Shown here in pieces: positions 43,751 through 58,152 of a stretch of 64,000 bases of DNA; position 1 is the first letter of the stretch; every line of letters begins with the position of its first letter. The notes beneath the pieces are model-generated. The model was not told where the DNA came from and searched no databases. It saw only the letters and a list, made by a program, of their open reading frames with translations. The stretch comes from Acidobacteriota bacterium (GTDB taxonomy: Bacteria > Acidobacteriota > Terriglobia > Bryobacterales > Bryobacteraceae): positions 1 to 64,000 of the forward strand of contig JAFKEE010000039.1 in the NCBI GenBank assembly GCA_017307505.1, read 5' to 3'. A program made the position numbers and the translations under genes.

Positions 43751-45487
43751 TCACTGCACCGGATGCAGCACCAGCCGTTCCAGGTTGATGGTGCCGCCTG
43801 CTTTGGTATCCAGTTTCACGCGCACTTCCGTCGCGCCCTGTTTCAGGTCCATCTCGCCCAGTGTCTGTGATTTGAACACCCAGTCCCCACCGGAATTTAG
43901 GGACGCTCCGGCGAGCTTGGCCGTGCCGGCCTCCACCGTGAACGGTGTTCCGGCTTTCCGCGAGGAGTAGAACGCCTCCACGCGGTAACGGCCCGCCTTG
44001 GGCGCCTCCACCTTCCAATAGGGCACGTCCTTGTCGCGTGTCCAGCGCGTCAGGTACACATGGCCAAGCGCGTTCTCTTTTTTGGCTCTCTGCTCAAACT
44101 CGGTCTCGATCTCGCACGATTCCACGCCCAGGCTGATCAACCCCTTCGCATCGGGCCGGTTGGCAAACGGCACGGAAACCGGCGCACCATCCAGAGTCAG
44201 CTCCACCACGCTGGCAATCTCATCCGGAGCCTGGCCCGGCAGCGCCAGCAGGATATCGTCCCCTTCCCTCCTGGCCACAATCTTGCGGGACGGATCGGCC
44301 AGCAGCCGCGACGAATGGACGATGTTGCGCAGGCCGGCCACCCGCAGCGTGCCGTCTTTCGGCCAGTCGAAGATGTGCAGGTAGAGCTTGTTGCCCTTGG
44401 CCGTCGCGCGGCCGAAAAACGACATCCGCTCAAACGGGCTCGCGGTCGTGCCGTAGATCGATTCCTGGTTTACCTTCATCCAGCGGCCCATGGCATTCAA
44501 CCGCGTGACGAATTCATCCTGAATCGTGCCGTCGGGCTTCGGCCCCACGTTCAGCAGCAGGTTGCCGCCTTTGCTCACCACCTCCACCAGCATGCGGATC
44601 AGGTCGCGGTCGGTCTTGAAGTCGGTCTCGTATTTGTTGTAGCCCCACGAGTCGTTGTTGATCGTGACGCACGCTTCCCACAGAATCGGCTTGCCGCTGG
44701 GATCCTTAAAGCCCGTGGCCGGAACATACTGCTCCGGCGTGCCGAAATCGGCTTTGTTGCCGGGTTTGCGCTCATACAATCGGTCGTTGATCAGCGTATT
44801 CGGCTGCAGTCCGCGGATGAAGTCGTAGACCTCGTCGTCTCGCTTTGCCTCGGCCAGCGTGTGCTCCCACTCGCCGTCAAACCAGATCATCGCCACATCG
44901 CCGTAGCCCGTGAGCAGTTCCTTCAACTGGGCCTTCATAAAGTCGATGTACCGGTTGTTGTTGCCGCCTTCCTTGTAGTTTTTCGGGTACTCCCAGGAGC
45001 GGCGCGGCCGGTAGTCGGGATGGTGCCAGTCCATGATCGAGTGGTAGAAGCCCAGCCGCATGTCCTTCTTCTTCGCCGCTGCGGCCAACTGCTTCAACGG
45101 ATCCCCCGCATAGGGTGTCATCTCGATGTCGTAGTCGCTCGCCGGGCTGCGGAAGATGCTGAAGCCGTCGTGGTGCTTCGAGGTAATCACCATGTACTTG
45201 GCCCCGGCGTTCTTGGCCAGATCCACCCATGTGTCGGCATTGAAGTTCACGGGATTGAACTGCTTCGCATAGACGTCATACTCCGCTTGCGGGATCTGCG
45301 CCATGGTGCGGATCCATTCGTGACGCCCGATCACTGAGTACGCGCCCCAGTGAATGAACATTCCGAACTTGGCTTCGCGGAACCAGCGCGTGCGTTCTTC
45401 CGCCGAAAGCGGCGGCTGGGAAGGTTGGGCGAAGGACACCAGGGTGGCGGCCAGCAGGGTTAGGGCGGCGGATGAGGCGGGCTTCAT
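43751..45487 (-). CDS. Secreted GH29 alpha-L-fucosidase
   Basis: 578 residues from ATG at 45487 (MKPASSAALTLLAATLVSFAQPSQ), a Sec signal, unlike the Tat signal of the other GH29. The catalytic domain has WFREAKFGMFIHWGAYSV, ITSKHHDGFSIF, the nucleophile Asp204 in MIWFDGEWEHT, and VVSKGGNLLLNVGPKPDGTI. The C-terminal 110 residues form a carbohydrate-binding-like sandwich (YWKVEAPKAGRYRVEAFYSS, EVRVKLDTKAGGTINLERLVL). It is closer to classic bacterial fucosidases than the paralogue at 17582. Convergent with the lipoprotein gene and divergent from trxB by 55 bases. Confidence 0.93.
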   Translation of the reverse strand: MKPASSAALTLLAATLVSFAQPSQPPLSAEERTRWFREAKFGMFIHWGAYSVIGRHEWIRTMAQIPQAEYDVYAKQFNPVNFNADTWVDLAKNAGAKYMVITSKHHDGFSIFRSPASDYDIEMTPYAGDPLKQLAAAAKKKDMRLGFYHSIMDWHHPDYRPRRSWEYPKNYKEGGNNNRYIDFMKAQLKELLTGYGDVAMIWFDGEWEHTLAEAKRDDEVYDFIRGLQPNTLINDRLYERKPGNKADFGTPEQYVPATGFKDPSGKPILWEACVTINNDSWGYNKYETDFKTDRDLIRMLVEVVSKGGNLLLNVGPKPDGTIQDEFVTRLNAMGRWMKVNQESIYGTTASPFERMSFFGRATAKGNKLYLHIFDWPKDGTLRVAGLRNIVHSSRLLADPSRKIVARREGDDILLALPGQAPDEIASVVELTLDGAPVSVPFANRPDAKGLISLGVESCEIETEFEQRAKKENALGHVYLTRWTRDKDVPYWKVEAPKAGRYRVEAFYSSRKAGTPFTVEAGTAKLAGASLNSGGDWVFKSQTLGEMDLKQGATEVRVKLDTKAGGTINLERLVLHPVQ

Positions 45488-45542
45488 GCTGCAAGGTATT
45501 CTACCGCCCACTGCGATAGCATGGAATTTCCAGGTACTTTGC

Positions 45543-46466
45543 ATGCGGAACGTCATCATCATCGGCTCAGGCTGCGCGGGAAATACCGCGGCTATCTACA
45601 CCGCCCGGGCGGGTCTGGCCCCTCTGGTGATCGCCGGCCACGAGCCCGGCGGCCAGCTCTCCATCACCACCGAAGTCGAGAACTTCCCAGGCTTTCCCGA
45701 AGGCATCATGGGGCCGCAACTGGTTGAAAATATGAAGCAGCAGGCCATCCGCTTCGGCGCCGAGTACATCTCCGGCAAAGTCGAAGAGGCCGACCTCTCC
45801 AAACGCCCCTTCCGCCTCAAGATCGATGACGAGTGGCACGAGTGCCGCACGCTCATCGTCGCCTCCGGCGCCTCCGCCCGCTGGCTGGGCCTGCCCAACG
45901 AGCAGAAACTCATCGGCCATGGCGTCAGCTCCTGCGCCACCTGCGACGGCTTCTTCTATAAGGGCAAGAAAATCATAGTGATCGGCGGCGGCGATTCCGC
46001 CATGGAGGAGGCCAACTTCCTCACCCGCTTCGGCGATGAGGTCACCCTCATCCACCGCCGCGAGGAGTTCCGCGCCTCCAAGATCATGCTCGACCGCTGC
46101 AAGGCGAACCCCAAGATCAAGTGGCTCACGAATACAGTAGTCGAGGACGTGCTCGACATCGAGAAGGGCTACGTCGACGCCGTTAAGCTCAGGAACGTCA
46201 AGACGGGCGAAACCTGGACCCAGGCCGTCGACGGCTTCTTCCTCGCCATCGGCCACATTCCGAATACCCAGCCCTTCGTCGGCCAGCTCGATCTGGACGA
46301 AGACGGCTACATCATCAGCCACGGCGGCGCCCGTACCAATATCACCGGCGTCTTCCACGCCGGAGACGTTGAGGACCGCATCTACCGCCAGGCCATCACT
46401 GCCTCCGGAGCCGGCTGCAAGGCCGCCATCGAAGCAGAGAGATTCCTGGAAGCCGAAGGGCACTAA
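45543..46466 (+). CDS. trxB: Thioredoxin-disulfide reductase
   Basis: 307 residues from ATG at 45543; the open frame upstream is antisense to the fucosidase gene. Reduces thioredoxin with NADPH. The FAD-binding motif IIIGSGCAGNTAAIYTA is at the N-terminus, the redox-active Cys131-Ala-Thr-Cys134 in SSCATCDGFFY, and the NADPH motif VIGGGDSAMEEANFL follows; the C-terminal FHAGDVEDRIYRQAITASGAGCKAA is diagnostic. HRREEFRASK marks NADPH preference. A single-gene unit followed by a hairpin. Confidence 0.96.
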   Translation: MRNVIIIGSGCAGNTAAIYTARAGLAPLVIAGHEPGGQLSITTEVENFPGFPEGIMGPQLVENMKQQAIRFGAEYISGKVEEADLSKRPFRLKIDDEWHECRTLIVASGASARWLGLPNEQKLIGHGVSSCATCDGFFYKGKKIIVIGGGDSAMEEANFLTRFGDEVTLIHRREEFRASKIMLDRCKANPKIKWLTNTVVEDVLDIEKGYVDAVKLRNVKTGETWTQAVDGFFLAIGHIPNTQPFVGQLDLDEDGYIISHGGARTNITGVFHAGDVEDRIYRQAITASGAGCKAAIEAERFLEAEGH

Positions 46467-46539: not shown

Positions 46540-46569
46540 GGCCGCTGCAACCCAGCGGCCCTTCCTATT
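46540..46569 (+). terminator. Possible terminator after trxB
   Basis: A perfect 8-base stem, GGCCGCTG (46540-46547) with CAGCGGCC (46553-46560), has a 5-base loop and is followed by CTTCCTATT. The T-tract is weak, so termination is only likely. It lies in a convergent gap between trxB and the last gene of the phosphatase-superfamily operon. Confidence 0.5.
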
Positions 46570-48667
46570 GCACGTAGCCGAGTGACTTCAGCCGGTCCAC
46601 GGCTTCCTGGCCCATCCCCAGCTCCTGGTCGCCCGGCTTAATGTAGTTCTGCTGCCAGGTCTTCAGGAGCCTCTCCAGTTGCGCCGCCTGCTCCGGCTTG
46701 CTGGCGGCCACGTCTCGCGTCTCGTTGGGATCCGCCGCCAGGTCGTACAATTCCCGCCTGCCCTTGGTCGTCAGCACCATTTTGAGACCGCCCAGGTAGA
46801 CGGCCCGCTCCACGTCGATGAACCGCTCCTCGACGCCCCACTTCTGCCAGAGCGCATAGGACTCCGCGTAGACAGGCCGGGTCGCCAGGTGCTCCGCCTT
46901 CCGCAGGGTAATCCCCGCCAGGCGCCGCGGTACGGGTGCGCCAATCACGTCCAGTACAGTCGGAAACAGATCCACCAGGCTCACCGTGATGTCCACATCC
47001 TTCCGTTGCTGCTGCCCCGGATACTTCACAATCAGCGGTACGTGGACCTGGTCCTGATACACCGACACCCCGTGCTCCATCAGCGAGCGCTCCCCAAACA
47101 CCTCCCCGTGATCCGCGGTGACGATGATCAGGGAGTTGTCGTATACACCGTTCTCCCGCAGCATCTGGAACAGCCGCCCCAACTGGTGATCGGCATAGGC
47201 GATGCCCGAATCATAGGCGGCCGCCAGATCTTCCCGTTCCTGCGGCGTCACCACGCGTTTCTCCTCGTCTACCAGCTTCACCAGTTCATAGAACTCTGTA
47301 CTGGTCCAATGCCTGTCCGGCGTCCGGAATCTGTTTCGAAAAGGCGCTGGAGGGTTGTACGGCCAGTGCGCGTCCATGAGATTCAGGAACAGAAACGATG
47401 GCTGCGCCTGCTTCCATTTCCCCAGTACGATGCCGGCCTCATCCACCATCTTGGAGCCGGGCACGTACGGCTCGTCAGCGCCCGTGATCCCCATCAGGTG
47501 GAGCCGCGTCGAACGCAGCACGGAAGGCATCCGGCTTGTCTCCAGCGACACCGCCGTTGTCGGCACACGGTACAGATCGAAGCCGCGCCCAAAACCAATC
47601 TCCGGCGCCAGGTAGGCCCGGTTCGCCACCAGCGCCGCCGTCCGGTATCCATAGTGCTGCAGCGTCTCGGCCAGAGTCGGTGCCGATCGCGGAATATGAC
47701 CCAGCCGCACGTCCGGATAGTCATACCGGACTCCGTGCCGCAGCGCGTAAAGCCCCGTCATCATCGTCGCGTGGCTGGGCGCCGTCCAATCGGCCGCCGA
47801 AACAGCATCCCGGTAGACCGTCGCCTGCTTCGCAAACTCCTCCAGTTGCGGAGTCGTCTGCCGTCCGTACCCATACAAATGCAGGTGATCCGCCCGCACC
47901 GTATCCAAGGTAATGAGAATGACATTCGGCCGCCCGGCCTTCGCGCCGTCCGCCGGCGAACCCGGCAGCGGCACACGGGCCCGGAATCCGAAGCCAAGCG
48001 CGAGCGCAGCAGCCAGGATCCAGGCCGAAGCACGGATCGGGAAGCGTGCGCCCCAACCCTCAGGCTTGTTTCGAAAGACCAGCCAGGACAAGCCCAGGAC
48101 GGCCGCGAACGCCAGGGACGAGAACGACATCTGCACCAGCGGATCGCCCTTCGGCAGCACGTAGAAATACATCCAGGGCCGCAGCAGCACGGCGACCGTC
48201 AGCGTCACGGGATTCATCAGGAACCAGGTCCAACGCGACCACCGCGCACTCCAGCCGGCTGCCAGACCGACGAAAATCATCGCCACAGGCACCGCCAGTG
48301 CCAGCACAGTCGGCACCAGTCCCTGCGACCGCCGCGCCAGCACATACCCGAACACCACCAGCACAGTGATCCCGGCGCCGCGCGTCATCCGTGCCTGCGC
48401 CTCTTCCGGATCCTTCGGCGGCACGATCAGAAACCATACCCGGGCACAGACGGCCGCCAACAGCGGGCCGGCAGCCACCCAGACCGCCAGAGCCGCCACG
48501 CCCACCAGCCAGTACTCGGAATACGGCACCGTTCCTTCCGGCCGCAGCCACTCCGACACCGCATCCGCCAGCGCATACTCCACCGCGCCATAGAAAGCCC
48601 AGTACACCAGGCCCCACCACAACGCCTTGCGCCAATCGAAGACCGCAGGATTCATCGCCCGTTCCAT
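46565..48667 (-). CDS. Polytopic membrane protein with C-terminal sulfatase-fold domain (LtaS-like layout)
   Basis: 700 residues. The N-terminal 230 residues form about seven membrane helices (for example WWGLVYWAFYGAVEYAL, LVPTVLALAVPVAMIFVGLAAG, SAWILAAALALGFGF). The rest is a sulfatase-fold domain outside the membrane with metal residues Asp255 and Asp260 (ITLDTVRADHL), His434 (NLMDAHWPYN), Asp519-His520 (TADHGEVFGE) and His532 (MEHGVS). The nucleophile position holds Thr295 in DWTAPSHATMMTG, where sulfatases have Cys or Ser. Helices plus a Thr-nucleophile domain resemble phosphoglycerol or phosphoethanolamine transferases (LtaS, EptA). It ends in RLKSLGYVQ. It is the last gene of the six-gene operon and lies one base from the previous gene. 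Confidence 0.88.
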   Translation of the reverse strand: MERAMNPAVFDWRKALWWGLVYWAFYGAVEYALADAVSEWLRPEGTVPYSEYWLVGVAALAVWVAAGPLLAAVCARVWFLIVPPKDPEEAQARMTRGAGITVLVVFGYVLARRSQGLVPTVLALAVPVAMIFVGLAAGWSARWSRWTWFLMNPVTLTVAVLLRPWMYFYVLPKGDPLVQMSFSSLAFAAVLGLSWLVFRNKPEGWGARFPIRASAWILAAALALGFGFRARVPLPGSPADGAKAGRPNVILITLDTVRADHLHLYGYGRQTTPQLEEFAKQATVYRDAVSAADWTAPSHATMMTGLYALRHGVRYDYPDVRLGHIPRSAPTLAETLQHYGYRTAALVANRAYLAPEIGFGRGFDLYRVPTTAVSLETSRMPSVLRSTRLHLMGITGADEPYVPGSKMVDEAGIVLGKWKQAQPSFLFLNLMDAHWPYNPPAPFRNRFRTPDRHWTSTEFYELVKLVDEEKRVVTPQEREDLAAAYDSGIAYADHQLGRLFQMLRENGVYDNSLIIVTADHGEVFGERSLMEHGVSVYQDQVHVPLIVKYPGQQQRKDVDITVSLVDLFPTVLDVIGAPVPRRLAGITLRKAEHLATRPVYAESYALWQKWGVEERFIDVERAVYLGGLKMVLTTKGRRELYDLAADPNETRDVAASKPEQAAQLERLLKTWQQNYIKPGDQELGMGQEAVDRLKSLGYVQ

Positions 48668-48668
48668 C

Positions 48669-49493
48669 TCAGAACACCACTCCGAAGCGCCGCTTCAGCA
48701 GCAGCGCGGCCGGCATCGAGATCAGCATGAGCGCCCAGAGCCAGTGCATCGGAAAACCGAACAGCCGCACCTCGGTGGCCGGATACTCGATCTCCGCCCA
48801 GGCCGCCTTCGCGCCCGTCAACCGGCTCTCTCCCGGGTGCAGCCAAAGACTCATCATTCCAGCCACCCGCCGCGCATCCACCGGCCGCGGCCGCCCACCG
48901 GCCTCAATCCGCTTCTCCACCGGACCCCAGGGAAACTCGGCCCGCAGCATTCCAGCGCTCTCGCTCGTGGCCCGGATCCGCCACACCACGCTCTGCTCCG
49001 CTTCCACACGGACCGCTGGTGTCTCCACCACGATCCCCGCGGGCGCAACCAATCGGGGAGTGCCGCCGCCCACATCCACCGGTCCTTCCAGATGAACGGT
49101 AAACAGCGCCGCCTCCCCAATCGGCAGCGGACCCTGCCCGTAATACCGCTCCATCTGGGCCAGCAGCGGCCACAACGCCACACTCGCGCAGGCGATCGGT
49201 ACCGCCATCCAGAACAGATACGCCGCATTCGCCAGCAGCAGCCGGCCCTGCGCTCCGAATACCAGCGCGGGCTCGTCCGAAAACAGCCTCATCTCCATCA
49301 GGTAAGCGCGCAGCAGATTCTTCGAACGCTCAATCCGCTTCGGACTCGATGTATGCCGGAAGACGAACAACATCACCAGCGCGGCCAGCAGGGCCAGCGG
49401 AGTCATGCTCGCCCAGGGCGGCAGCCCGCCTGTCCCTGCCGCATAGGCATCGAACAGCCGGCTCAAGCCAAGATTGATCCACTCCACCAGCAT
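48669..49493 (-). CDS. Three-helix membrane protein with periplasmic beta domain, unknown
   Basis: 274 residues. Predicted layout: helix 1 (ASMTPLALLAALVMLFVF, about 28-45), a basic cytosolic helical stretch (TSSPKRIERSKNLLRAYLMEMRLFSDEPALVF), helix 2 (LFWMAVPIACASVALWPLLA, about 93-112), a periplasmic domain of about 130 residues, and helix 3 (LWALMLISMPAALLL) ending in a basic tail. A cytosolic basic helix between helix 1 and helix 2 is the pattern of the Oxa1/EMC3/TMCO1 superfamily, but sequence similarity to it was not tested. Between an RHH gene (nine bases) and the polytopic sulfatase-fold gene (one base), so it is likely a partner of the latter. Confidence 0.65.
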   Translation of the reverse strand: MLVEWINLGLSRLFDAYAAGTGGLPPWASMTPLALLAALVMLFVFRHTSSPKRIERSKNLLRAYLMEMRLFSDEPALVFGAQGRLLLANAAYLFWMAVPIACASVALWPLLAQMERYYGQGPLPIGEAALFTVHLEGPVDVGGGTPRLVAPAGIVVETPAVRVEAEQSVVWRIRATSESAGMLRAEFPWGPVEKRIEAGGRPRPVDARRVAGMMSLWLHPGESRLTGAKAAWAEIEYPATEVRLFGFPMHWLWALMLISMPAALLLKRRFGVVF

Positions 49494-49502
49494 GCGTCCG
49501 CG

Positions 49503-49694
49503 CTAATCCAGATAACCCAGGCCCTTCAGCTTCTTGGCGATCTCCTCGTCGGAGTCGGAGGTCTCAATGCGCGCCAGTTCGCGCTCCAGAACATGCTCCA
49601 CAAACTCCTGCACCGACGAATACCCGCCCGCTTCCGCGCAGCGCTTCACCCGCTCCGCCAGCTCTTTCTTCAGCTTGATCGAGGTTGAAAACAT
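49503..49694 (-). CDS. Small ribbon-helix-helix-like protein
   Basis: 63 residues. FSTSIKLKKELAERVKRCAEAGGYSSVQEFVEHVLEREL fits the CopG/Arc beta-helix-helix fold, with a likely DNA-contacting strand TSIKL. The remaining tail ends EEIAKKLKGLGYLD, close to the RLKSLGYVQ end of the operon's last protein. It could be a DNA-binding regulator of the operon or, given the tail, a protein that joins a complex. There is no toxin beside it, so an antitoxin role is unlikely. Confidence 0.7.
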   Translation of the reverse strand: MFSTSIKLKKELAERVKRCAEAGGYSSVQEFVEHVLERELARIETSDSDEEIAKKLKGLGYLD

Positions 49695-49712
49695 AAGAAT
49701 TTCCCCAGTCTC

Positions 49713-51611
49713 TCAGAACATCGGATGGCCCGTCATCGCCGCTGGCACCGCCACTCCGAACTGCTTCAGGATGCTTACCGGCACGTCGCGCAAATGTGGC
49801 TTCTCCAGCACCGGCTTCCGGTTCGTAAAGAGCACGCCGGGCACAAACTCCGGATCAATGCAGTGATCCGCCAGCCATGCCTCTTCATTCGACACCAGGA
49901 TCTGTTCCGGCACCGCGCCCAGCGCAGTCTGCCAGCTGGCGCGATACCCCGGCTCGTAGCCCACCACCAGGTCTGGCGCATAGCCTGGCAGCTTGCCGGT
50001 CGCCACCTGCGCCGCCGTATAAACGGACTTCACAACAGCCTTTCCCGTCAGCGGATCCCGCAGCGCCAGCAGCCGCTCGCTGATCTTGCGGAGCAGCGCC
50101 TGGCTGTCCTCACCGGGTGCCACTGCTCCGTTCGGTTCCCGGCCCGCCAGGTTCAGGTAGATCTCGTTCAGCCCCAGGGCGTAAGCCCGCGTCTGCGACC
50201 AGTCGACATTCGCAAACAACTCCTCGTCCCCGCGTTGACTGCCGTCGATCAGCTTCAGCAGTCCCTCCTGCGCCAGCCACGTATTCAGGTGCACCGCCCG
50301 GTCGAACGTCGAGAAGCCATGATCCGACATCACCACCAGCGTCCCGTCTTCCCCCAGTTTCGCCATCGCCAGGCCCACGGCCTCATCGATTCGCCGGTAG
50401 ATCCGAGCCAGTTCCTCGTCATACCGGCCCCACAACACATGCGCATGCTGGTCAACGCTCGAGAAGTAATAGAACATCAGCCCGTCTTCATACCGGTCCA
50501 GCTCGTGCCGGAACAGCGTCATGCTGTCATCCAGAACCTGCCCGGCCTGCTGCAGGAACTCCGCATGATTCAGGGAGCGCGCGCGCAGCGCCGAAGTATC
50601 CTCCGCAATCCCCTGCGTGTAGAACGGACCCACGGCGTTGGCCAGGGTCGCGCTGAACTCCTTCGGCGTCGAAATGGGCAGCGCCGGCTCCCGTGGATCC
50701 ATATTCACAGGGCTCAGGTACACTTCCAGCGAAGGTTTTACCCTGCGCAGCAATACCCTTGCGATGCCGCGCGCCTTCGCCGCAGGACCCAACAGCGGAA
50801 ACTCCAGGGGGAACCACGGCGACCACTCCCCGGCGCGCAGCGCGAACCGCTTGCCGCCCGCTGCGATGAGCGCCGTCTCTGTTCCTTCGTCCACATCCAC
50901 CGTCAGCGCCGCCGCCGACACGGGATGCCCACGGCGGAACCCGTTCACCGGCCCGTCCACCGCCAAAACTGCGTGCCGCCCCTGCATCTTCACGGGAACA
51001 ATCCGCCCGCCCGGCACCGTGCGCTCCGTCGCTCCCGGGTCCGCGGTAAACGTCGTGAACGTTCCATAGCCGCCCTGCAGATCAGGCGTGCCCATGCCCG
51101 CCAGGCTCTCGCCGGGAAACTCCACCGGCGGGAAATTCACCGGCATGCGCAGGATTCGCGCCGGCACGCCTTGCGCGCTCAGCAGCGTCCAGAACGAGGC
51201 GCCTCTCCGCAGGCTCCGCACCTGGCCCGATTCCAGCGGCAGGAGCCAAGGTCCAAATGCGAACGTGCGCCGGGCCTCCAGCACCTCGGCCATCGATGAA
51301 TAGGGAGTAATCGTGGCCGCATCCCGATGCACAAAGTCGAAGATGCCGTGCCCGCCCGGATCCAGGCCCGTAATCACAGCCGACCACGCCACCGGGCTCT
51401 GCGGAGGATTCGTTGTCGCCAGGCGTTGAAACCCGCCCTGCCGCCGCAGCCGGTCCAGGTTCGGCAGCATCGCCCAATGCTTCTCGACAAAGACGGGATC
51501 CATCCCGTCGACGCCCAGCACGATCATCCGCGGATGCTGCCCGCGCTCCCTGGCCGCGCCGCAACCCCAACAGCCCAGGACAACCGCCAACCACAGCCAG
51601 CCCAGTCTCAT
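49713..51611 (-). CDS. Lipoprotein of the alkaline phosphatase superfamily (nucleotide pyrophosphatase/phosphodiesterase type)
   Basis: 632 residues from ATG at 51611, which overlaps the upstream gene stop. The N-terminus MRLGWLWLAVVLGCWGCG has a probable lipobox. Catalytic-core motifs: the metal Asp35 in MIVLGVDGMDP, Ser72 in PPQSPVAWSAVITGL as the likely nucleophile, Asp-His in SSVDQHAHVLWG, Asp-His in VVMSDHGFSTF, and His in LADHCIDPEFVPGVLF. The protein is a tandem paralogue of the next gene upstream. It probably cleaves a phosphodiester or phosphomonoester in the periplasm. The substrate is unknown. Confidence 0.85.
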   Translation of the reverse strand: MRLGWLWLAVVLGCWGCGAARERGQHPRMIVLGVDGMDPVFVEKHWAMLPNLDRLRRQGGFQRLATTNPPQSPVAWSAVITGLDPGGHGIFDFVHRDAATITPYSSMAEVLEARRTFAFGPWLLPLESGQVRSLRRGASFWTLLSAQGVPARILRMPVNFPPVEFPGESLAGMGTPDLQGGYGTFTTFTADPGATERTVPGGRIVPVKMQGRHAVLAVDGPVNGFRRGHPVSAAALTVDVDEGTETALIAAGGKRFALRAGEWSPWFPLEFPLLGPAAKARGIARVLLRRVKPSLEVYLSPVNMDPREPALPISTPKEFSATLANAVGPFYTQGIAEDTSALRARSLNHAEFLQQAGQVLDDSMTLFRHELDRYEDGLMFYYFSSVDQHAHVLWGRYDEELARIYRRIDEAVGLAMAKLGEDGTLVVMSDHGFSTFDRAVHLNTWLAQEGLLKLIDGSQRGDEELFANVDWSQTRAYALGLNEIYLNLAGREPNGAVAPGEDSQALLRKISERLLALRDPLTGKAVVKSVYTAAQVATGKLPGYAPDLVVGYEPGYRASWQTALGAVPEQILVSNEEAWLADHCIDPEFVPGVLFTNRKPVLEKPHLRDVPVSILKQFGVAVPAAMTGHPMF

Positions 51612-53755
51612 CCCTGCGCCTCGGGCACTGCGCGGAATATAGCCGCCCCTTCCATCCACGCCGGCTTCGCCACGCCAAACAGATGCAGCGCCGTCGGCGC
51701 CATGTCCTCAATGCCGGGATCGTCCGCATCCACCGGGCGGTTCGAGAAAAGAACACCCGGCACCAGCACCGGATCGATGCAGTGGTCGCCGCTCCACGCC
51801 TTCGTGTTGTCCGAAAAAATCTCTTCGCTGGTCTTCCCCAGCGCCGCATCCCACGAACTGCGATAGCCGTCGCTGAAACCCACGATCAGGTCAGGCGCCG
51901 CATTCAGGTAGGGCCCCTTGTAGATCTTCCCCGCCGTGTACACCTGCTGGATCGCCACCGTCCCGTCGGCTGGATCACACAGCCCCCGCAGGTTCTCCGT
52001 CAGCTCCCGGCACAACTCTGCTGTCTCCGCGCCACGCTCCACGATGCCGTTCGATTCCCGGCCCTTCTGGTTCACATACACGCCGGCCAGTCCGAACGTG
52101 TAGGCTCGCGTCCGGCTCCAGTCGATCCCGCGCAGATAAGCCCCATCGCCTTCATAACCGGGCTGCATCACCAGGTAGCCGTGGTCGCGCAGCCAGGCAT
52201 TCAGATTCACCCCGCGCCGGAAGGCGCGAAACCCGTGATCCGACAGAACGAAGATCGCGGTCCTGTCATCCACATAGCGCATGGCCCGGCCCACCAGCGC
52301 GTCCATCCGCTGGTACAACTGCTCGATCACCGCCGTGTGGCGGCCCACCGGCAGCCGACCGTCCAGATGCCGGAAGAACATGTGCTGCACCCGGTCGCTG
52401 GTGTCGAAGACACATGCCACCACGCCGCGCTTCGTCCGCTCCAGCGCATTGAAGAACATCGCCTCACGCTCTTCCTGGATCGAGTACGCCTGCGACAGAA
52501 ACGCGTCTTCGTCGATCACGCCCTCGTTAAGCGCCCAGGTATCCTCCGCCATCCCCACCGTGGCATAGCTCCCCAGCAGCTTCGCCAGGTATGTCGCGTA
52601 GTACGACGGGTGCGAAATCGGCAGCGCCGGATTCTCCGGATCGATGTTGATCGGCGTCACGTACAGGCTGAACTCGGGCGACGTCTCCGTGATCATTACT
52701 CGGGCAATTCCGCGCACCTTCATCCCCAGCGCCGCCGGGAATGACAGTTGCAGCCACGGCGAATGCTCGTCCGGTTTCAGCGGGTGCTTCTGCCCGTCGA
52801 TCTCCAGTTCATACGCACCACCCCGCGGCCGCAGTTCAAAGGGCAATTCCATCGCCGCTCCGCCCTCCACCAGCGAATTGGCCGGCCCCCGCAGCACGCC
52901 ACGCAACACCTCACCCACTCGCTCCAGCGGATACCGGCTGCCGCTTTCGTACGTAGCCTCGGCCACGCGTGTTGTGAACTGCGTAAAACTCCCCTGCGTG
53001 CCCAGCAGGTCCGGCGTGCACATCGCGGAAAGGAGTCTCCCGTTAAACTGCTCGGGAGGAAACGTGATGGGTACCCGCAGGATCGTCGACCCGATGCCGT
53101 GCTCGCCCAGGATCTTCCAGAACGTCTGGCTCTTGCGCCGCATCTCCACCATCGGGTTCGAGAGCGGAATGCGGAATCGCCCGAGCTTCAGGACCTTGGC
53201 CGGGCCGGACACCCTCGAACTGGACAGCTCCGGCAGGTACGACTTCAGATTGCGGTTCAGGAAGTCGAAGATATTGTGTCGCGCCGGATTCACACCCGTC
53301 GCAAACGTCGACCACGCCACCGGCGACAGCGAGGGGAACGTCGTCCGCAGGCGGCGGTAGCTGCCTTTGTCCCGCAGCGCCGCCAGGTTCGGCAGCTTGC
53401 CTTCGGCCATGAATCGCTCGGTCAACACCGGATCCAGCCCGTCCAGCCCCAGGAAGATCAACTTCTGGACCCGCGCCTTGCGATATCCCTGCCGCCGCCG
53501 GACCAGGCTCCACACCAGCCGCACCGGCCATGCCACCAATGACAACACCGTCAGGAAAAACGCCGAGATCATCGCCAGCAGCGAGCCCACGAACGCGAAG
53601 CCCGCGCCCGGCCCGACATAGGCGAATTGCGGACCAGAGCCCGGCACAGGCGGCGCCCACACCGCGGCCATAGCCAGAGCCAACAGGATCCAGGTTGCGG
53701 TCGAACTGCTCAGCCTGCCAGCCGGCGACGGGATCCACCCGCGCCGCCTCGTCAT
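51608..53755 (-). CDS. Membrane-anchored alkaline phosphatase superfamily enzyme (paralogue of the downstream gene)
   Basis: 715 residues. Two membrane helices (TWILLALAMAAVWAPP; AFVGSLLAMISAFFLTVLSLVAW) and a basic linker precede the enzyme domain, whose core has Asp105 in LIFLGLDGLDP, Ser144 in PSLSPVAWSTFATG, Asp-His in SDRVQHMFFRH, Asp-His in VLSDHGFRAF and His in SGDHCIDPVLVPGVLF. It shares these motifs and about the same spacing with the downstream paralogue, so a tandem duplication is likely. Starts and stops overlap both neighbours by four bases. The N-terminal topology differs from the lipoprotein paralogue, which suggests different sites at the same membrane. Confidence 0.85.
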   Translation of the reverse strand: MTRRRGWIPSPAGRLSSSTATWILLALAMAAVWAPPVPGSGPQFAYVGPGAGFAFVGSLLAMISAFFLTVLSLVAWPVRLVWSLVRRRQGYRKARVQKLIFLGLDGLDPVLTERFMAEGKLPNLAALRDKGSYRRLRTTFPSLSPVAWSTFATGVNPARHNIFDFLNRNLKSYLPELSSSRVSGPAKVLKLGRFRIPLSNPMVEMRRKSQTFWKILGEHGIGSTILRVPITFPPEQFNGRLLSAMCTPDLLGTQGSFTQFTTRVAEATYESGSRYPLERVGEVLRGVLRGPANSLVEGGAAMELPFELRPRGGAYELEIDGQKHPLKPDEHSPWLQLSFPAALGMKVRGIARVMITETSPEFSLYVTPINIDPENPALPISHPSYYATYLAKLLGSYATVGMAEDTWALNEGVIDEDAFLSQAYSIQEEREAMFFNALERTKRGVVACVFDTSDRVQHMFFRHLDGRLPVGRHTAVIEQLYQRMDALVGRAMRYVDDRTAIFVLSDHGFRAFRRGVNLNAWLRDHGYLVMQPGYEGDGAYLRGIDWSRTRAYTFGLAGVYVNQKGRESNGIVERGAETAELCRELTENLRGLCDPADGTVAIQQVYTAGKIYKGPYLNAAPDLIVGFSDGYRSSWDAALGKTSEEIFSDNTKAWSGDHCIDPVLVPGVLFSNRPVDADDPGIEDMAPTALHLFGVAKPAWMEGAAIFRAVPEAQG

Positions 53756-54636
53756 CTCAGCTTGCCCTCGACAAACGGAACTTCGAACACCTTCTCGTGG
53801 AAAATCGGGCCGTGGCCGAAATACCCGTCTTCCCCGAACAGTTCGCCATGATCCGCTGTGATCGTGACGTATGTGTTCTTCGGCAGCAGGTCGAACATCT
53901 CTTCCACGACGTTGTCGATATATTTCACGGCCTTGATCTGCCGCGCCCGCAGCTCCGCCAGCTTTTTGTCGTTGAAGAACTTGTCCTTCTTCTTCAGCAG
54001 CTTCCCACCCACAACTTCGTCATCCAGGTGTTTGAACACGCCATGCACGCCCGAGATCCGCGGCCACTCGTCCGGCGGTTCCTGCGGCAGCGCATAAGGA
54101 TAGTGAGTTTCCCCCACGTTCAGGATGTAGAAAGTGGGCTGTTCTTCACTGAATCGCAGCTCATGCACCATCGCCCGCATGTCGTTGTGCTTCTCCATCA
54201 ACCGGTAACTGTCGAAGCCCGTATTCAGCGGAGTCTTCGGGTTCAACACCGGCAGCGACACCATCGCATGCGTCCTGTAGCCCAGCGAGTCCTTCAGAAA
54301 TGTTGGCAGGTTCAGCCGCGGCACCAGCGACCGGAAGGAGATATCCTCCGCGCCCAGCCGCTCGTTGTAGCGGAGAATGTCGTGCTTGTAATACTCAGAC
54401 GCATACACGTGCCTGGGACTCGTATGCGGCAGCAGCCCCATCAGCAGGTTGTAGTGCGACGGCGAAGTCCAGGAAGCGTACGACCACCGCTTCTCCACCT
54501 TGCCCAGACTCCGCATCACCTTGGGCCGCGCCCGGACGAACGAGTCGTACCGGCAGCTGTCCAGGATGATTAACAGATAGTTGTTATGGGCCTTCCGGGC
54601 CCTGGGGGACTGCTCCATCTCAGGCAATGATAACAT
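53752..54636 (-). CDS. Soluble sulfatase-fold hydrolase with Thr in the nucleophile position
   Basis: 294 residues (an ATG six codons in is an alternative). There is no signal peptide or membrane helix, so it may act in the cytosol. Fold residues: Asp26 in LLIILDSCRYD, Thr57 in YASWTSPSHYNLLMG, His178 in NVGETHYPY, Asp262-His263 in TADHGELFGE and His275 in FGHGPIF. As in the last gene of the operon, Cys/Ser is replaced by Thr, so formylglycine-dependent sulfatase chemistry is not expected. First gene of the operon; overlaps the next by four bases. A regulatory palindrome lies about 80 bases upstream. Confidence 0.85.
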   Translation of the reverse strand: MLSLPEMEQSPRARKAHNNYLLIILDSCRYDSFVRARPKVMRSLGKVEKRWSYASWTSPSHYNLLMGLLPHTSPRHVYASEYYKHDILRYNERLGAEDISFRSLVPRLNLPTFLKDSLGYRTHAMVSLPVLNPKTPLNTGFDSYRLMEKHNDMRAMVHELRFSEEQPTFYILNVGETHYPYALPQEPPDEWPRISGVHGVFKHLDDEVVGGKLLKKKDKFFNDKKLAELRARQIKAVKYIDNVVEEMFDLLPKNTYVTITADHGELFGEDGYFGHGPIFHEKVFEVPFVEGKLR

Positions 54637-54711
54637 CCGCCCCCGGAGCCTCAGCCCGCCAACACCTCCGGCCCCGGCCCGGATTTTGCTCCGAATCAGA
54701 CTCTAGTCCCT

Positions 54712-54730
54712 GATTGTGGTATACCCAATC
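54712..54730. promoter_or_regulatory. Palindrome GATTG-T-GGTATACC-CAATC between divergent GH106 gene and phosphatase operon
   Basis: GATTGTGGTATACCCAATC has a perfect core palindrome GGTATACC flanked by complementary GATTG and CAATC, with one extra T on the left. Several GntR/FadR-family operators, such as the E. coli UxuR box, share the TGGTATACCA core. TGGTATACC could also be read as an extended -10 box for the GH106 gene, whose start at 54772 lies 42 bases on. It sits between two divergent units. Confidence 0.5.
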
Positions 54731-54771
54731 CAGTCACTTTCGAGTGTCATGTCGTCCGGAGGTACATCGAC

Positions 54772-57700
54772 ATGTCCAAAGCGATCCAGGCGATCGTGCC
54801 CGCCCTCCTCTGCCTCGTCACTGGAAGCTCCGCCCAGGGCCCAGCACCCGTTGCTATCGACCCCCTCGTCCAGGGTTTTCAAACTCCGCCCGACTCGGCT
54901 AAACCGCGCGTCTGGTGGCACTGGATGAATGGCAACATCACCAAACCAGGCATTCAGGCCGACCTCGAGTGGATGAAGCGCGTCGGCATCGGCGGCTTCC
55001 AGAACTTCGATGCCGCCCTCGCCACTCCGCAGATCGTCGATAAACGCCTGGTCTATATGACCCCGGAATGGAAGGATGCCTTTCGCTTCACCGTTACCCA
55101 GGCAGACCGTCTCGGCCTCGAAATGGCCATCGCCGGCTCACCCGGCTGGAGCGAAAGCGGAGGCCCCTGGGTCCCGCCCGCCCAGGCCATGAAGAAGTTC
55201 GTCTGGAGCGAAACGACCCTCGAAGGCGGCCGGTCCTTTGTCGGCAAACTGCCGGCACCTCCCTCCGTTGCCGGACCCTACCAGAACATCCCGCGCGCCC
55301 TGGGCGGCGGCATGCTCGGCACCGCCCCGCCGCAACGCCCTCCGGACTTCTATGCCGACAGCAGCGTCGTAGCCTTCCGCCTGCCGGCATCGGATATCAC
55401 CCTCGGCGAACTTCAGCCCGCGGTGACCTCCAGCGGCGGCAATTTCACCCTGCTGGGCCTCACCGATGGAGACCTTGCTACAGCCACTGAACTGCCCCTG
55501 GCCCCTGTCGGTGAGCGCGCCTGGATCCAGTTCGAATTCACCCAGCCTCAGACCATTCGTGCCCTGACCCTGGTCCTGCTTTCCGCCGCCCGCAACCCGT
55601 TCGGCGAGATGGCTTCCGATACCGGCCTCAACCTCGAATCCAGTAACGACGGTAGACAGTTCACCCGCTCCGCCTCCATCCCCCTCAGCCGCTCCGTCGC
55701 CAACACCATCGCGTTCCCGCCCGTCACTGCAAAGTTCTTCCGCGTCACCTTCCGCACCCCGCAACCTTCGGCGCGAGCCGGCGCCGGCATGAACTTTGGC
55801 GGAGGACGGCCCCCGGCCGCGCCAACGGCCCACCGCATCGCCGAACTCGTGCTCCATCCCGGCGCGCGCGTCAACCTCTTCCAGGAAAAGGCCGCCTTCT
55901 CCACCGTACCCACCCTCTACGGGCTCGCTACCTCTGCCGTGGCCGCGGAAGACGTCGTAGCCAAGTCAAACGTGGTCGACCTAACCTCGAAAATGCGCGC
56001 CGACGGCACTCTCGAATGGACCCCGCCCCCGGGCCGCTGGATGGTCCTCCGCCTTGGCTACTCCCTGCTGGGCATCACGAACCACCCGGCCTCCCCTGAA
56101 GCTACAGGCCTGGAAGTCGACAAACTGAATCGCAACTTCGTCAAAGCCTACGCCGACAACTACCTCGACCAGTACAAGGACGCTACCGGAGGGCTCATGG
56201 GCAGGCGCGGCCTCCAGTACGTCGTCATCGACAGCTACGAAGCCGGAGCCCAGAACTGGACCGACGAGATTCTCGTCGAGTTCGCCAAACGCCGCGGCTA
56301 CGACCCCCACCCCTGGCTCCCGGTCCTCACCGGCCGAGTCGTGGAGAGCGCCGCCGCTTCCGACAACTTCCTCTGGGATTTCCGCAAAACCATCGGCGAC
56401 CTCATGGCCGACTACCACTACGACCAGTTCGGCGCTTCCCTCAAAGCCCGCGGCATGGGCCGCTACACCGAAGCCCACGAGAGCGGCCGCGCGTTCATCG
56501 GCGACGGTATGGACATGAAACGCCACGCTGACGTGCCCATGAGCGCCATGTGGACCCCGCGCCCCGGCCAGACCGGCGAGTCGTTCGGCTACAACGCCGA
56601 CATCCGTGAATCCGCTTCCGTCGCCCACATCTACGGCCAGAACCTCGCCGCGGCCGAATCCCTCACCGCCATCGGCTCCGCCTGGGCCTGGTCCCCCGAG
56701 AAACTCAAACCCACCGCGGACAAGGAACTCGCCAACGGCCTCAACCGCTTCGTCATCCATACTTCCGTCCACCAGCCGGTCGACGACAAGATCCCCGGCC
56801 TCGGCCTCGGGCCCTTCGGCCAGTGGTTCACCCGCCACGAAACCTGGGCCGAGATGGCCAAGCCCTGGACCACCTATCTCGCCCGTAGCTCCTTCATGCT
56901 GCAGCAAGGCAAATTCGTCGCCGACGTCGCGTATTTCTACGGCGAGGACTCCAACATCACCGCCCTGTTCTCCAATCGCGCCCCAGCCATCCCGCCCGGC
57001 TACAACTTCGACTACGTCAGCGCCGACGCCCTGCTCACTCGCCTCTCCTGCTCCTCCGGCCGCCTGGTCACTCCCAGCGGCATGAGCTACGCCATCCTCG
57101 CGCTCGACCCCAACGCCGCTCACATGTCGCTGCCAGTCCTCCGCCGGATCCGCGACCTCGTTCAGGCCGGCGCGGCCGTCGTCGGACCCAAGCCCGTCTC
57201 CTCGCCCAGCCTCAGCGACAATGCCGCCGAGTTTCAGAACATCGCCGACCAGCTGTGGGGCAGCGACTCCTCCCCCAGAGCCGTCGGCAAGGGCAAGGTC
57301 TACCCCGCCTTCCCCATCGGCGCCGCTCTCGGCGACCTCCGTGCCGACGCCGACTTCACCTACACCAAACCAGAGGCCGACGCCGAACTCCTCTTCGTCC
57401 ACCGCAAGCTCCCCAACGCCGATCTCTACTGGGTGAACAACCGCCGCCATCGCGTGGAGAATCTCGACGCCACCTTCCGCATCACCGGCAGGGCCGCCGA
57501 GATCTGGCACCCCGAGACAGGCCGCATCGAGCCCGCGAGCTACAAGATCGACAACGGCCGCACCACAGTCCCGCTCCGCCTGGAGTCCGACGACGCTGTC
57601 TTCGTCGTCTTCCGCAAAGCCGCCGCCGGCCCATCCTCGCAGGTCCCCAAGACCGTCGAATCCACACTGACGACCATGGAAGGCCCCTGGACCGTCGCCT

Positions 57701-58152
57701 TTCAGCCCAACCGCGGCGCGCCCGCCCAGGTCACCATGCAGAGCCTCACCTCCTGGACGGAGAATTCAGACCCGGGGGTGAAGTACTTCTCTGGCACGGC
57801 CACCTATACCCGGACCTTCGAAGCCGCCGCGGACTGGCAACAGAAAGGCGCCACCCTATGGCTCGACCTCGGCAACGTCCAGAACCTCGCCGAAGTCACG
57901 GTGAACGGCAAGGCCCTCGGCATCGTCTGGAAGAGCCCCTTCCGTATCGAGATCACCAGCGCCGTCAAGCCGGGTGAGAACAAGGTCGAGATCAAGGTGG
58001 CGAACCTGTGGGTCAATCGCCTGATCGGCGACCAGCAGGCCGGCGCAAAGAAGATCACCTACACGACACAGGTCTTCTATCCAGCCGATTCGCCCCTATT
58101 GCCCTCAGGCCTGCTGGGTCCCGTGAAGATCCTGCGTGAGAGCAAGGAATAA
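54772..58152 (+). CDS. Secreted GH106-type glycoside hydrolase (alpha-L-rhamnosidase family), long form
   Basis: 1126 residues, with a Sec signal at MSKAIQAIVPALLCLVTGSSAQ and GGAGG 10 bases before the ATG. Motifs: PRVWWHWMNGNITKPGIQADL, MKRVGIGGFQNFDAAL, LGLEMAIAGSPGWSESGGPWV, VIDSYEAGAQNWTDEIL, FAKRRGYDPHPWLPVLTG and YTEAHESGRAFIGDGMDMKRH. The middle region (about 210-370) looks like a discoidin insert. The C-terminal jelly rolls include YFSGTATYTRTFEA and VNGKALGIVWKSPFRIE. Related to the 858-residue protein at 21379 but longer, mainly by that insert. It is divergent from the phosphatase operon and has a GntR-type palindrome upstream. Confidence 0.88.
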   Translation: MSKAIQAIVPALLCLVTGSSAQGPAPVAIDPLVQGFQTPPDSAKPRVWWHWMNGNITKPGIQADLEWMKRVGIGGFQNFDAALATPQIVDKRLVYMTPEWKDAFRFTVTQADRLGLEMAIAGSPGWSESGGPWVPPAQAMKKFVWSETTLEGGRSFVGKLPAPPSVAGPYQNIPRALGGGMLGTAPPQRPPDFYADSSVVAFRLPASDITLGELQPAVTSSGGNFTLLGLTDGDLATATELPLAPVGERAWIQFEFTQPQTIRALTLVLLSAARNPFGEMASDTGLNLESSNDGRQFTRSASIPLSRSVANTIAFPPVTAKFFRVTFRTPQPSARAGAGMNFGGGRPPAAPTAHRIAELVLHPGARVNLFQEKAAFSTVPTLYGLATSAVAAEDVVAKSNVVDLTSKMRADGTLEWTPPPGRWMVLRLGYSLLGITNHPASPEATGLEVDKLNRNFVKAYADNYLDQYKDATGGLMGRRGLQYVVIDSYEAGAQNWTDEILVEFAKRRGYDPHPWLPVLTGRVVESAAASDNFLWDFRKTIGDLMADYHYDQFGASLKARGMGRYTEAHESGRAFIGDGMDMKRHADVPMSAMWTPRPGQTGESFGYNADIRESASVAHIYGQNLAAAESLTAIGSAWAWSPEKLKPTADKELANGLNRFVIHTSVHQPVDDKIPGLGLGPFGQWFTRHETWAEMAKPWTTYLARSSFMLQQGKFVADVAYFYGEDSNITALFSNRAPAIPPGYNFDYVSADALLTRLSCSSGRLVTPSGMSYAILALDPNAAHMSLPVLRRIRDLVQAGAAVVGPKPVSSPSLSDNAAEFQNIADQLWGSDSSPRAVGKGKVYPAFPIGAALGDLRADADFTYTKPEADAELLFVHRKLPNADLYWVNNRRHRVENLDATFRITGRAAEIWHPETGRIEPASYKIDNGRTTVPLRLESDDAVFVVFRKAAAGPSSQVPKTVESTLTTMEGPWTVAFQPNRGAPAQVTMQSLTSWTENSDPGVKYFSGTATYTRTFEAAADWQQKGATLWLDLGNVQNLAEVTVNGKALGIVWKSPFRIEITSAVKPGENKVEIKVANLWVNRLIGDQQAGAKKITYTTQVFYPADSPLLPSGLLGPVKILRESKE

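Follow-up and report, generated by a model that had tools for sequence, protein, structure and literature searches.

A conserved gene unit of two NPP-type enzymes, an RHH protein and a membrane protein in Acidobacteriota, and its possible link to sulfate activation

What might a bacterium do with four alkaline-phosphatase (AP) superfamily enzymes encoded in a single run with a membrane protein and a small RHH protein? The question is raised by a locus in the 64,000-nucleotide stretch of Acidobacteriota DNA analysed here (the window), for which the original prediction had described a six-gene operon with two four-base overlaps and gaps of 1-18 bases. The operon is real: the ORF listing of the window holds six minus-strand ORFs at the coordinates of Table 1, with four-base overlaps between g6 and g5 (53752-53755) and between g5 and g4 (51608-51611), and gaps of 18, 9 and 1 bases from g4 to the RHH gene, from there to g2, and from g2 to g1. 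We took g4 from its ATG start at 51611; the listing opens at a GTG further upstream. The proposed tandem paralogy of g4 and g5 was borne out at 39% identity over about 615 residues of g5, and the W-T-x-P-S-H motif ascribed to two members is present in the translations of g1 and g6.

Table 1. Features of the operon in window coordinates
Feature	Coordinates	Strand	Description
g6	53752..54636	-	Short sulfatase-fold protein, predicted cytosolic, WTSPSH; accessory
g5	51608..53755	-	NPP-type AP enzyme; core gene 1
g4	49713..51611	-	Lipoprotein-type signal, then NPP-type AP domain; core gene 2
RHH protein	49503..49694	-	PF01402; C-terminal LKGLGYLD; core gene 3
g2 membrane protein	48669..49493	-	Core gene 4
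g1	46565..48667	-	Membrane-anchored sulfatase-fold protein, WTAPSH, tail LKSLGYVQ; accessory
Codons of RHH tail LKGLGYLD + stop	49503..49529	-	Own-genome pattern search
Codons of g1 tail LKSLGYVQ + stop	46565..46591	-	Own-genome pattern search

Conservation of a four-gene unit

The genes are indeed kept together in other genomes, but the conserved part is g5-g4-RHH-g2 rather than the whole operon, with g1 and g6 found in only part of the relatives. Of 33 Acidobacteriota neighbourhoods with a strong g5, 28 have all four core genes within 6 kb, a result not explicable by chance. Among 199 Acidobacteriota genomes, using presence lists compiled by hand, a strong g5 was found in 51, a strong RHH in 52 and both in 49, where strong denotes more than 600 bits for g5 and E <=1.6e-15 for RHH, weaker rows being dropped. 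A search of genome contigs with g2 as query returned no relatives; an alignment-based RHH scan then found them, with 400 RHH relatives in GTDB genomes. From these, 80 loci were fetched and contained g2 in 78, g4 in 71 and g5 in 68 cases, and in 11 of the 12 loci without g5 its expected position falls beyond the DNA covered, L102 being the exception. A g1-like protein at >=75 bits occurs in 21 of the 80 and g6 in nine; g6 lies just upstream of g5 on the same strand in six Bryobacterales/Solibacter loci, and in three loci of Planctomycetota it adjoins CysC, with Sat on its other side in two.

These 80 loci were chosen with the C-terminal tail pattern discussed below, so tail conservation within them is circular. 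The set not chosen by tail consists of 40 hand-picked neighbourhoods (L039-L078), 30 with the cassette, of which L048 and L069 have g5 and g4 only, and 10 'without the cassette', a group that includes some short contigs and three cases of g5 on its own; in L062 the RHH gene is within 6 kb, though outside its usual place. The two sets are not independent, since they have contigs in common (L046/L101, L061/L107, L058/L126, L049/L162 and L051/L144, judged by matching lengths). By record titles, nearly all of metagenome-assembled genomes, the four-gene unit spans roughly a dozen phylum-level labels, and searches of an open-access literature subset found no published name for it. Conserved synteny across distant taxa had been proposed as the observation that would speak for a system, and the core genes do stay together over such distances; that they form a recurring system is supported by these gene neighbourhoods.

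The enzymes and their partners

To judge from their sequences, g5 and g4 are intact NPP-type AP-superfamily enzymes. Both match Pfam Phosphodiest (PF01663; 114.6 bits for g5, 110.6 for g4) and carry the superfamily signature of metal ligands (D, DxxxH, DH, H) with a Ser/Thr nucleophile: in g5, D105, S144, D454, H458, D506, H507 and H658 are invariant over 57 sequences, and in g4, D387, H391, D430, H431 and H583 are invariant over 43, with D35 and S72 kept in >=90%. The predicted activity of this class is phosphodiester or nucleotide pyrophosphate hydrolysis. A PDB sequence search with g5 found nothing at E<=0.01; its AlphaFold model (pLDDT 90.0) has the AP/NPP fold, with matches to ENPP1, Xac NPP, PhnA, SPAP and PafA at E about 1e-10 to 1e-8, although global TM-scores are modest (TMq 0.33-0.39 among the matches listed). 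A comparison with LtaS, EptA and NPP, made here for g5, favours the last, as its leading fold matches comprise NPP enzymes, phosphonoacetate hydrolase and PafA/SPAP phosphatases, whereas LtaS and EptA are absent from the best 50 of 180 matches (E<=0.001). The fold of g5, and the metal ligands and position of the covalent nucleophile in both enzymes, are those of the NPP family, but the cassette enzymes have Ser where known NPPs have Thr, model residues 165-370, approximately, form a beta-rich region in g5, and the cassette combines one predicted cytosolic enzyme with one exported partner and the fixed partners g2 and RHH.

Membrane topology was derived from hydropathy and charge. In g5 an N-terminal helix is followed by an AY(I/V)GPGAG-type motif, a second helix, an Arg-rich segment and then the AP domain into which the beta-rich region is inserted; net charge after the second helix averages +6, with a minimum of +3, in the 58 motif-bearing sequences among 61 relatives, and the AP domain appears to face the cytosol. 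No mention of the motif, as YIGPGAGF, was found in the open-access literature subset. In contrast, g4 appears to be a periplasmic enzyme, the N-termini of 54 relatives sorting by regular expression into 23 with a lipobox, 12 with a twin-Arg motif and no lipobox, 18 otherwise hydrophobic and one with none of these.

The accessory proteins g1 and g6 match Pfam Sulfatase (175.1 and 42.5 bits), and the nearest solved relatives of g1 in a PDB sequence search are sulfatases and phosphonate monoester hydrolases, as might be expected of an operon for desulfation of sulfated glycans. However, the sulfatase formylglycine motif, C/S-x-P-x-R, requires its Cys/Ser and Arg, which Thr and His replace in both g1 and g6, while the core enzymes are NPP-type with Ser; we consider a desulfation operon very improbable indeed. 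Scores against curated models are likewise low, with arylsulfatase the best NCBIfam model for g1 (158 bits, cut-off 481) and the STM4013 family reached by g6 at 70 bits against 250. The original prediction would have failed had the enzymes proved ordinary sulfatases or unrelated scavenging phosphatases, an outcome disfavoured by the Thr and His of g1 and g6 and by the synteny of the core enzymes. With EptA/LtaS-type transferases g1 shares a membrane anchor, the sulfatase fold and the Thr that these have at the nucleophile position, but it falls far below their NCBIfam cut-offs, scoring 56.5 against 500 with the lipid A phosphoethanolamine transferase domain model and 36.8 against 970 with that of LtaS.

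The g2 protein comprises an amphipathic helix, TM1, a long helix with TM2, a beta domain with partial Ig-like matches and a C-terminal helix (TM3), and neither Pfam nor NCBIfam gave a match to it at E<=1. Its AlphaFold model (pLDDT 95.4, pTM 0.86) gave only partial Ig/filamin-type matches in the PDB, with none at E<=0.001, and BFVD was also empty at that threshold. The helix order had suggested an Oxa1/EMC3-like protein; no such match is among the Foldseek matches listed.

The RHH protein matches RHH_1 (PF01402) at 22.4 bits against a cut-off of 20.5 and ends in LKGLGY plus two residues; a PDB sequence search gave only weak CopG/NikR-type and unrelated matches. The domain is that of RHH antitoxins and regulators such as CopG, ParD and NikR, and together with the common scavenging role of exported NPP enzymes it would suit an ordinary autoregulatory DNA-binding repressor governing a set that scavenges nutrient phosphodiesters. 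We think this unlikely. The neighbours of the cassette RHH are AP enzymes and g2 rather than a toxin gene, one enzyme is predicted to be cytosolic, and the stretch upstream of the operon (54600-54800, in the window alone) shows short repeats only. Unlike the known regulators, the cassette protein has a conserved tail: when cassette RHHs were collected by similarity over the whole protein, with no regard to the tail, 28 of 28 proved to end in L-x-G-L-G-Y-(I/L)-x; L047 has a second, truncated copy that does not. The tail recurs, moreover, on g1 and on APS kinases in relatives, some of which are fused to RHH-like domains.

Sulfate-activation neighbours and the LGY tail

Among the neighbours that were typed, the recurring ones encode enzymes of sulfate activation and a small sulfotransferase (PF13469/PF00685). 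At >=75 bits the 80 loci contain ST in 23, CysC in 9, Sat in 7 and CysD in 3, and any of the four in 31 (CysQ was excluded as too general a family), while 49 have none of them in the DNA covered. In the L039-L078 set, any of the four is present in 15 of 30 cassette neighbourhoods versus 0 of the 10 lacking the cassette. The first reading of this DNA had missed the proximity of sulfate genes. At genome level an APS kinase occurs in 47 of 51 strong-g5 genomes as against 107 of the 199 Acidobacteriota overall; seven of 35 genomes with the small sulfotransferase are without strong g5 and RHH, and 14 of 24 weak RHH matches near an APS kinase are within about 4 kb. One neighbourhood (L060) has a same-strand run of Sat-CysC-AP430-g5-g4-RHH-g2, upstream of which lie CysQ and another RHH, and in Planctomycete Pla86 (L136) all six gene kinds sit with ATP sulfurylase and APS kinase in the order Sat, g6, CysC, g1-like (other strand), g5, g4, RHH, g2. 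The AP430/460 enzymes, of 430-460 residues and located beside APS kinase, also belong to PF01663, matching nearly the full length of the model, and in 11 of 11 sequences all six metal ligands are kept (counts compiled by hand).

Bacterial PAPS-dependent sulfation modules, of the Nod-factor type, comprise Sat/CysD, CysC, CysQ and a sulfotransferase. Activation enzymes and a sulfotransferase of these kinds are recurrent neighbours of the cassette, which differs in adding LGY tails, RHH, g2 and AP enzymes predicted for either face of the membrane. The operon of the window itself contains no sulfate-activation gene; the APS kinase of its own genome is on a different contig, without a tail, in a cluster resembling CysD/CysN by eye, and the small sulfotransferase has no match in that genome at E<=1e-10. 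These neighbours also bear on the idea put forward originally, in which the operon would make or modify a phosphorylated polymer of the cell surface, with a phospho-group transferred by one of the enzymes and the donor or by-product cleaved by others. It would fit with the faint likeness of g1 to EptA and LtaS and with AP-superfamily enzymes that seem to lie on either side of the membrane, but the neighbours typed, a minority of all, include sulfate genes and no polymer or teichoic-acid partner, and g5 folds like NPP, PhnA and PafA/SPAP. The idea found no support here and we regard it as unlikely.

We use LGY tail for a C-terminal L-x-x-L-G-Y-hydrophobic common to unrelated proteins of the neighbourhood. 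In the window's own genome (9.39 Mb), scanned for tails with at most one residue beyond the hydrophobic position, only RHH and g1 end in this way. Their common tail had gone unremarked in the first reading. Of the 34 APS kinases that adjoin AP-type genes, 21 have a tail extension and 13 have none; among kinases with no such neighbour it is present in 4 of 85. Unfused tailed kinases number 18 beside AP genes and 0 elsewhere, the remaining seven being fusions to an RHH-like domain (three with and four without an AP neighbour), backed by a profile match in five (L213, L222, L258, L260, L266) and by eye in L211 and L254. These counts rest on 121 closed kinase entries, the open ORF L206 being excluded, reduced to 119 by merging the duplicate pairs L183/L263 and L184/L278; L199 and L256 were not scored as tails because the motif there is the natural end of the kinase. 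Before removal of duplicates and natural ends the counts were 22/34 versus 5/87, and with AP scores >=300 only, 20/28 versus 5/91. The Fisher tests ignore relatedness, and collapsed to families the association weakens to 7/16 versus 2/36 (P = 0.002).

It could be argued that the tail is a mere common helix end and that the sulfate link reflects general islands of surface and sulfur genes. Canonical APS kinase, CysD and sulfatase-like proteins do finish in similar helices, and since many ordinary APS kinases end in sequences such as HLEKEGYIG or KLREQGYL the tail and the kinase end could be convergent; the genomes, too, are not independent samples. Against this, both matching gene ends of the own genome, at the tail lengths scanned, fall in this one operon, reversed ORFs gave no match among 5,529, 9,973 and 5,623 ORFs, and all 18 unfused tailed kinases adjoin AP genes. 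We consider this reading unlikely.

A possible arrangement and its meaning

Our preferred reading, held tentatively and at somewhat less than an even chance, is of a membrane-associated NPP-type pair acting on both faces with g2 and RHH, working with PAPS-type sulfate activation in sulfate-linked chemistry, with LGY tails docking partners onto the AP enzymes. Docking, substrate and chemistry are here what we infer. Cytosolic g5 and periplasmic g4 would be joined by g2 and served by the small RHH protein; RHH proteins are dimers, and a dimer could present two tails to g5 in the cytosol as docking peptides for AP-type enzymes. In relatives the APS kinase bears the tail itself or through a fused RHH-like domain, and in the window the bearer is g1, which probably lies outside together with g4. 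More weakly, g5 and AP430/460 may hydrolyse, or transfer from, adenylyl-sulfate or a sulfated phosphodiester via a covalent Ser intermediate, with g4 perhaps acting on a matching species outside. A bolder version, which we offer as speculation and think quite improbable, is a transmembrane relay that passes on an activated sulfate-bearing group by means of AP-fold enzymes instead of classical sulfotransferases: the APS kinase would be tethered by its LGY tail, the cytosolic AP enzyme would take the group from the nucleotide onto Ser, a carrier would cross via g2 and g4 would pass the group on outside, LGY being a general plug for assembling AP complexes on either side of the membrane.

Deletion tests may be possible in Pla86, where a chromosome from a complete genome carries the enlarged locus. 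Should the tail prove to be a docking peptide, it would provide a simple code for the enzymes, regulators and kinases of one complex, and a direct handle on the many unassigned AP-superfamily and sulfatase-like genes. The retention of the unit across about a dozen phylum-level labels points to a basic envelope function, one that is nameless in the searches run.

The cassette and its distribution

Six open reading frames lie on the minus strand of the window at the positions originally predicted, overlapping by 4 bases at two junctions and separated by 18, 9 and 1 bases at the other three. Four of the six encode alkaline-phosphatase (AP) superfamily proteins; the products of the other two are an RHH protein and a membrane protein, g2, which has no Pfam or NCBIfam match.

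Features of the operon, its flanks and related loci
Feature	Location	Strand	Description
g1	46565-48667	minus	sulfatase-fold
g2	48669-49493	minus	membrane protein
RHH	49503-49694	minus	RHH protein
g4	49713-51611	minus	NPP-type, paralogue of g5
g5	51608-53755	minus	NPP-type, paralogue of g4
g6	53752-54636	minus	sulfatase-fold
Flanking genes	45354-46466; 54772-58152	plus	one thioredoxin-reductase-like, one large-glycoside-hydrolase-like (by eye)
Tandem RHH pair	L047:7184-7534		one a 49-residue truncated copy without the tail
Small DUF2061-type membrane proteins near cassette	L109:11269-11565; L091:11070-11369		end RLEELGYL (L091 by similarity)
g4 lipoproteins	L118:7788-9980; L122:7714-9867		LxSLGY element soon after the lipobox
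Own-genome APS kinase	L201:6319-9591		tail absent; preceding genes CysD- and CysN-like by eye

With the g5 protein as query, 115 of 199 Acidobacteriota genomes had hits at E<=1e-20, many of these hits being distant paralogues, and the 40 neighbourhoods retrieved from this search included 33 strong g5 genes. g4, RHH and g2 were all found within 6 kb of g5 in 28 of these 33, a grouping referred to here as the cassette. Two of the remaining five had a g4-like gene as sole partner, extending past the contig end in L048 and forming a 436-residue ORF in L069; the other three, from a single family, had a solitary g5, with a g4-like gene and RHH on a different contig.

An RHH-alignment scan of GTDB genomes returned 400 relatives, and the best 80 of these, whose selection included the tail pattern described below, were examined as loci. 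Their contig labels span Acidobacteria (including Aminicenantes and Bryobacterales), Gemmatimonadetes, Planctomycetes, Verrucomicrobia, Schekmanbacteria, Eisenbacteria, Sumerlaeota, Armatimonadetes, Omnitrophota, Nitrospirae, Caldithrix, Hebobacteria and (Delta)proteobacteria. Among these best 80 of 400, g2 was present in 78, g4 in 71 and g5 in 68, in variable order (g2 ahead of RHH in L086-L090, g5 on the opposite strand in L083-L085). Genes of the g1 and g6 kinds, present at 21 and 9 of the 80 loci respectively, are accessory. The suggestion that these genes form a system is thus borne out: it is real and widespread. L150 (labelled Alphaproteobacteria) and L155 (Acidimicrobiia) have nearly identical layouts resembling Acidobacteria loci such as L146, and these two contigs may be misbinned.

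A shared C-terminal tail

The cassette RHH ends in L-K-G-L-G-Y plus two residues, an instance of what we call the LGY tail (L-x-x-L-G-Y-hydrophobic), and all 28 cassette RHHs among relatives found without using the tail carry it. When the window's own genome was scanned for (L/F)-x-x-(L/F)-G-Y-hydrophobic followed by a stop either directly or after one further residue, g1 and RHH were the sole gene ends with the tail; the other four pattern matches, at three places, end in TGG instead of a stop. Reversed-ORF controls gave zero tail matches in 5,529, 9,973 and 5,623 ORFs. In relatives the tail is also found on second RHH-like proteins, APS kinases, a CysD, and DUF2061 and sulfatase-like proteins. 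The element in the L118 and L122 lipoproteins looks as if a tail had been placed in cis.

We compared presence of the tail on APS kinases with that of an AP-type neighbour no more than about 1.5 kb away. A first count gave tails on 22 of 34 kinases with an AP neighbour versus 5 of 87 without; after dropping two duplicate entries and no longer scoring two natural kinase ends as tails, the figures were 21/34 versus 4/85 (P = 6e-11, relatedness ignored), and by family 7/16 versus 2/36 (P = 0.002). All four tailed kinases without an AP neighbour are fusions to a tail-bearing RHH-like domain, as are 3 of the 21 with one, and all 18 unfused tailed kinases adjoin AP genes. This association is the best evidence, at the level of sequence, that the tail and the AP enzymes may belong together. 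Fusions ending in the tail were seen in L211, L213, L222, L254, L258, L260 and L266, across three families of the phylum.

Sulfate-activation neighbours

Among the neighbouring genes, Pfam identified ATP sulfurylase (Sat), APS kinase, PAPS-reductase-fold (CysD type), inositol-monophosphatase family (CysQ type), sulfotransferase and DUF2061 proteins. Sulfur genes accompany 15 of 30 cassette neighbourhoods in the first, g5-selected set and none of 10 without a cassette; in the 80 loci, a set overlapping the first, a small sulfotransferase occurs 23 times, APS kinase 9, Sat 7 and CysD 3, with at least one of the four in 31. L060 has Sat, APS kinase, a 428-residue PF01663 enzyme, g5, g4, RHH and g2 on one strand, and the planctomycete Pla86 (L136) brings together Sat, g6, APS kinase, g1-like (opposite strand), g5, g4, RHH and g2, that is, the window's six gene kinds plus two activation genes. 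With relatedness ignored, APS kinase is present in 47 of 51 strong-g5 genomes (107/199 overall) and sulfotransferase in 26 of 51 (35/199 overall). Against a sulfate link, however, 49 of the 80 loci have none of the four genes within the DNA examined, strong g5 and RHH are absent from 7 of the 35 sulfotransferase genomes, and the window's own genome gave no small-sulfotransferase match at E<=1e-10 and has its APS kinase on another contig.

Enzymes, topology and a proposed role

All 57 g5 sequences keep the Ser nucleophile and every metal ligand; the 43 g4 sequences keep five ligands without exception, with D35 and S72 conserved in at least 90%. Structural matches to the g5 model (pLDDT 90.0) are ENPP1, Xac NPP, phosphonoacetate hydrolase and PafA/SPAP. 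In g5 a helix at the N-terminus is followed by the AY(I/V)GPGAG-type motif (58/61), a second helix and then a strongly positive segment; the positive-inside rule being a guide to membrane topology, this segment leads us to predict that the g5 AP domain faces the cytosol. g4 is probably exported, because its N-termini, classified by regular expressions (n=54), carry a lipobox (23), a twin-Arg motif (12) or another hydrophobic segment (18). g1 has three segments by strict hydropathy and more by eye, and its AP domain is probably outside, the topology being uncertain. g2 is modelled with confidence (pLDDT 95.4) as a set of helices surrounding a beta domain; this domain has partial matches of Ig-like type, and the fold as a whole matched nothing in the PDB.

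Tails are carried by the cytosolic RHH and APS kinase, where g5 and AP430/460 (430-460-residue AP-type enzymes beside APS kinase) are predicted, and also by g1, probably outside with g4. Carriers on both sides fit a putative docking in which LGY tails would bind AP domains on either membrane face. The original chemistry, in which a phosphorylated cell-surface polymer is built or remodelled by one transferring enzyme and others that cleave, found no support; from gene context, adenylyl-sulfate or a sulfated phosphodiester would be our guess at the substrate. While the mechanism remains a proposal, the novelty of the system rests on its composition: paired AP enzymes predicted to lie across the membrane, g2 and a tailed RHH.
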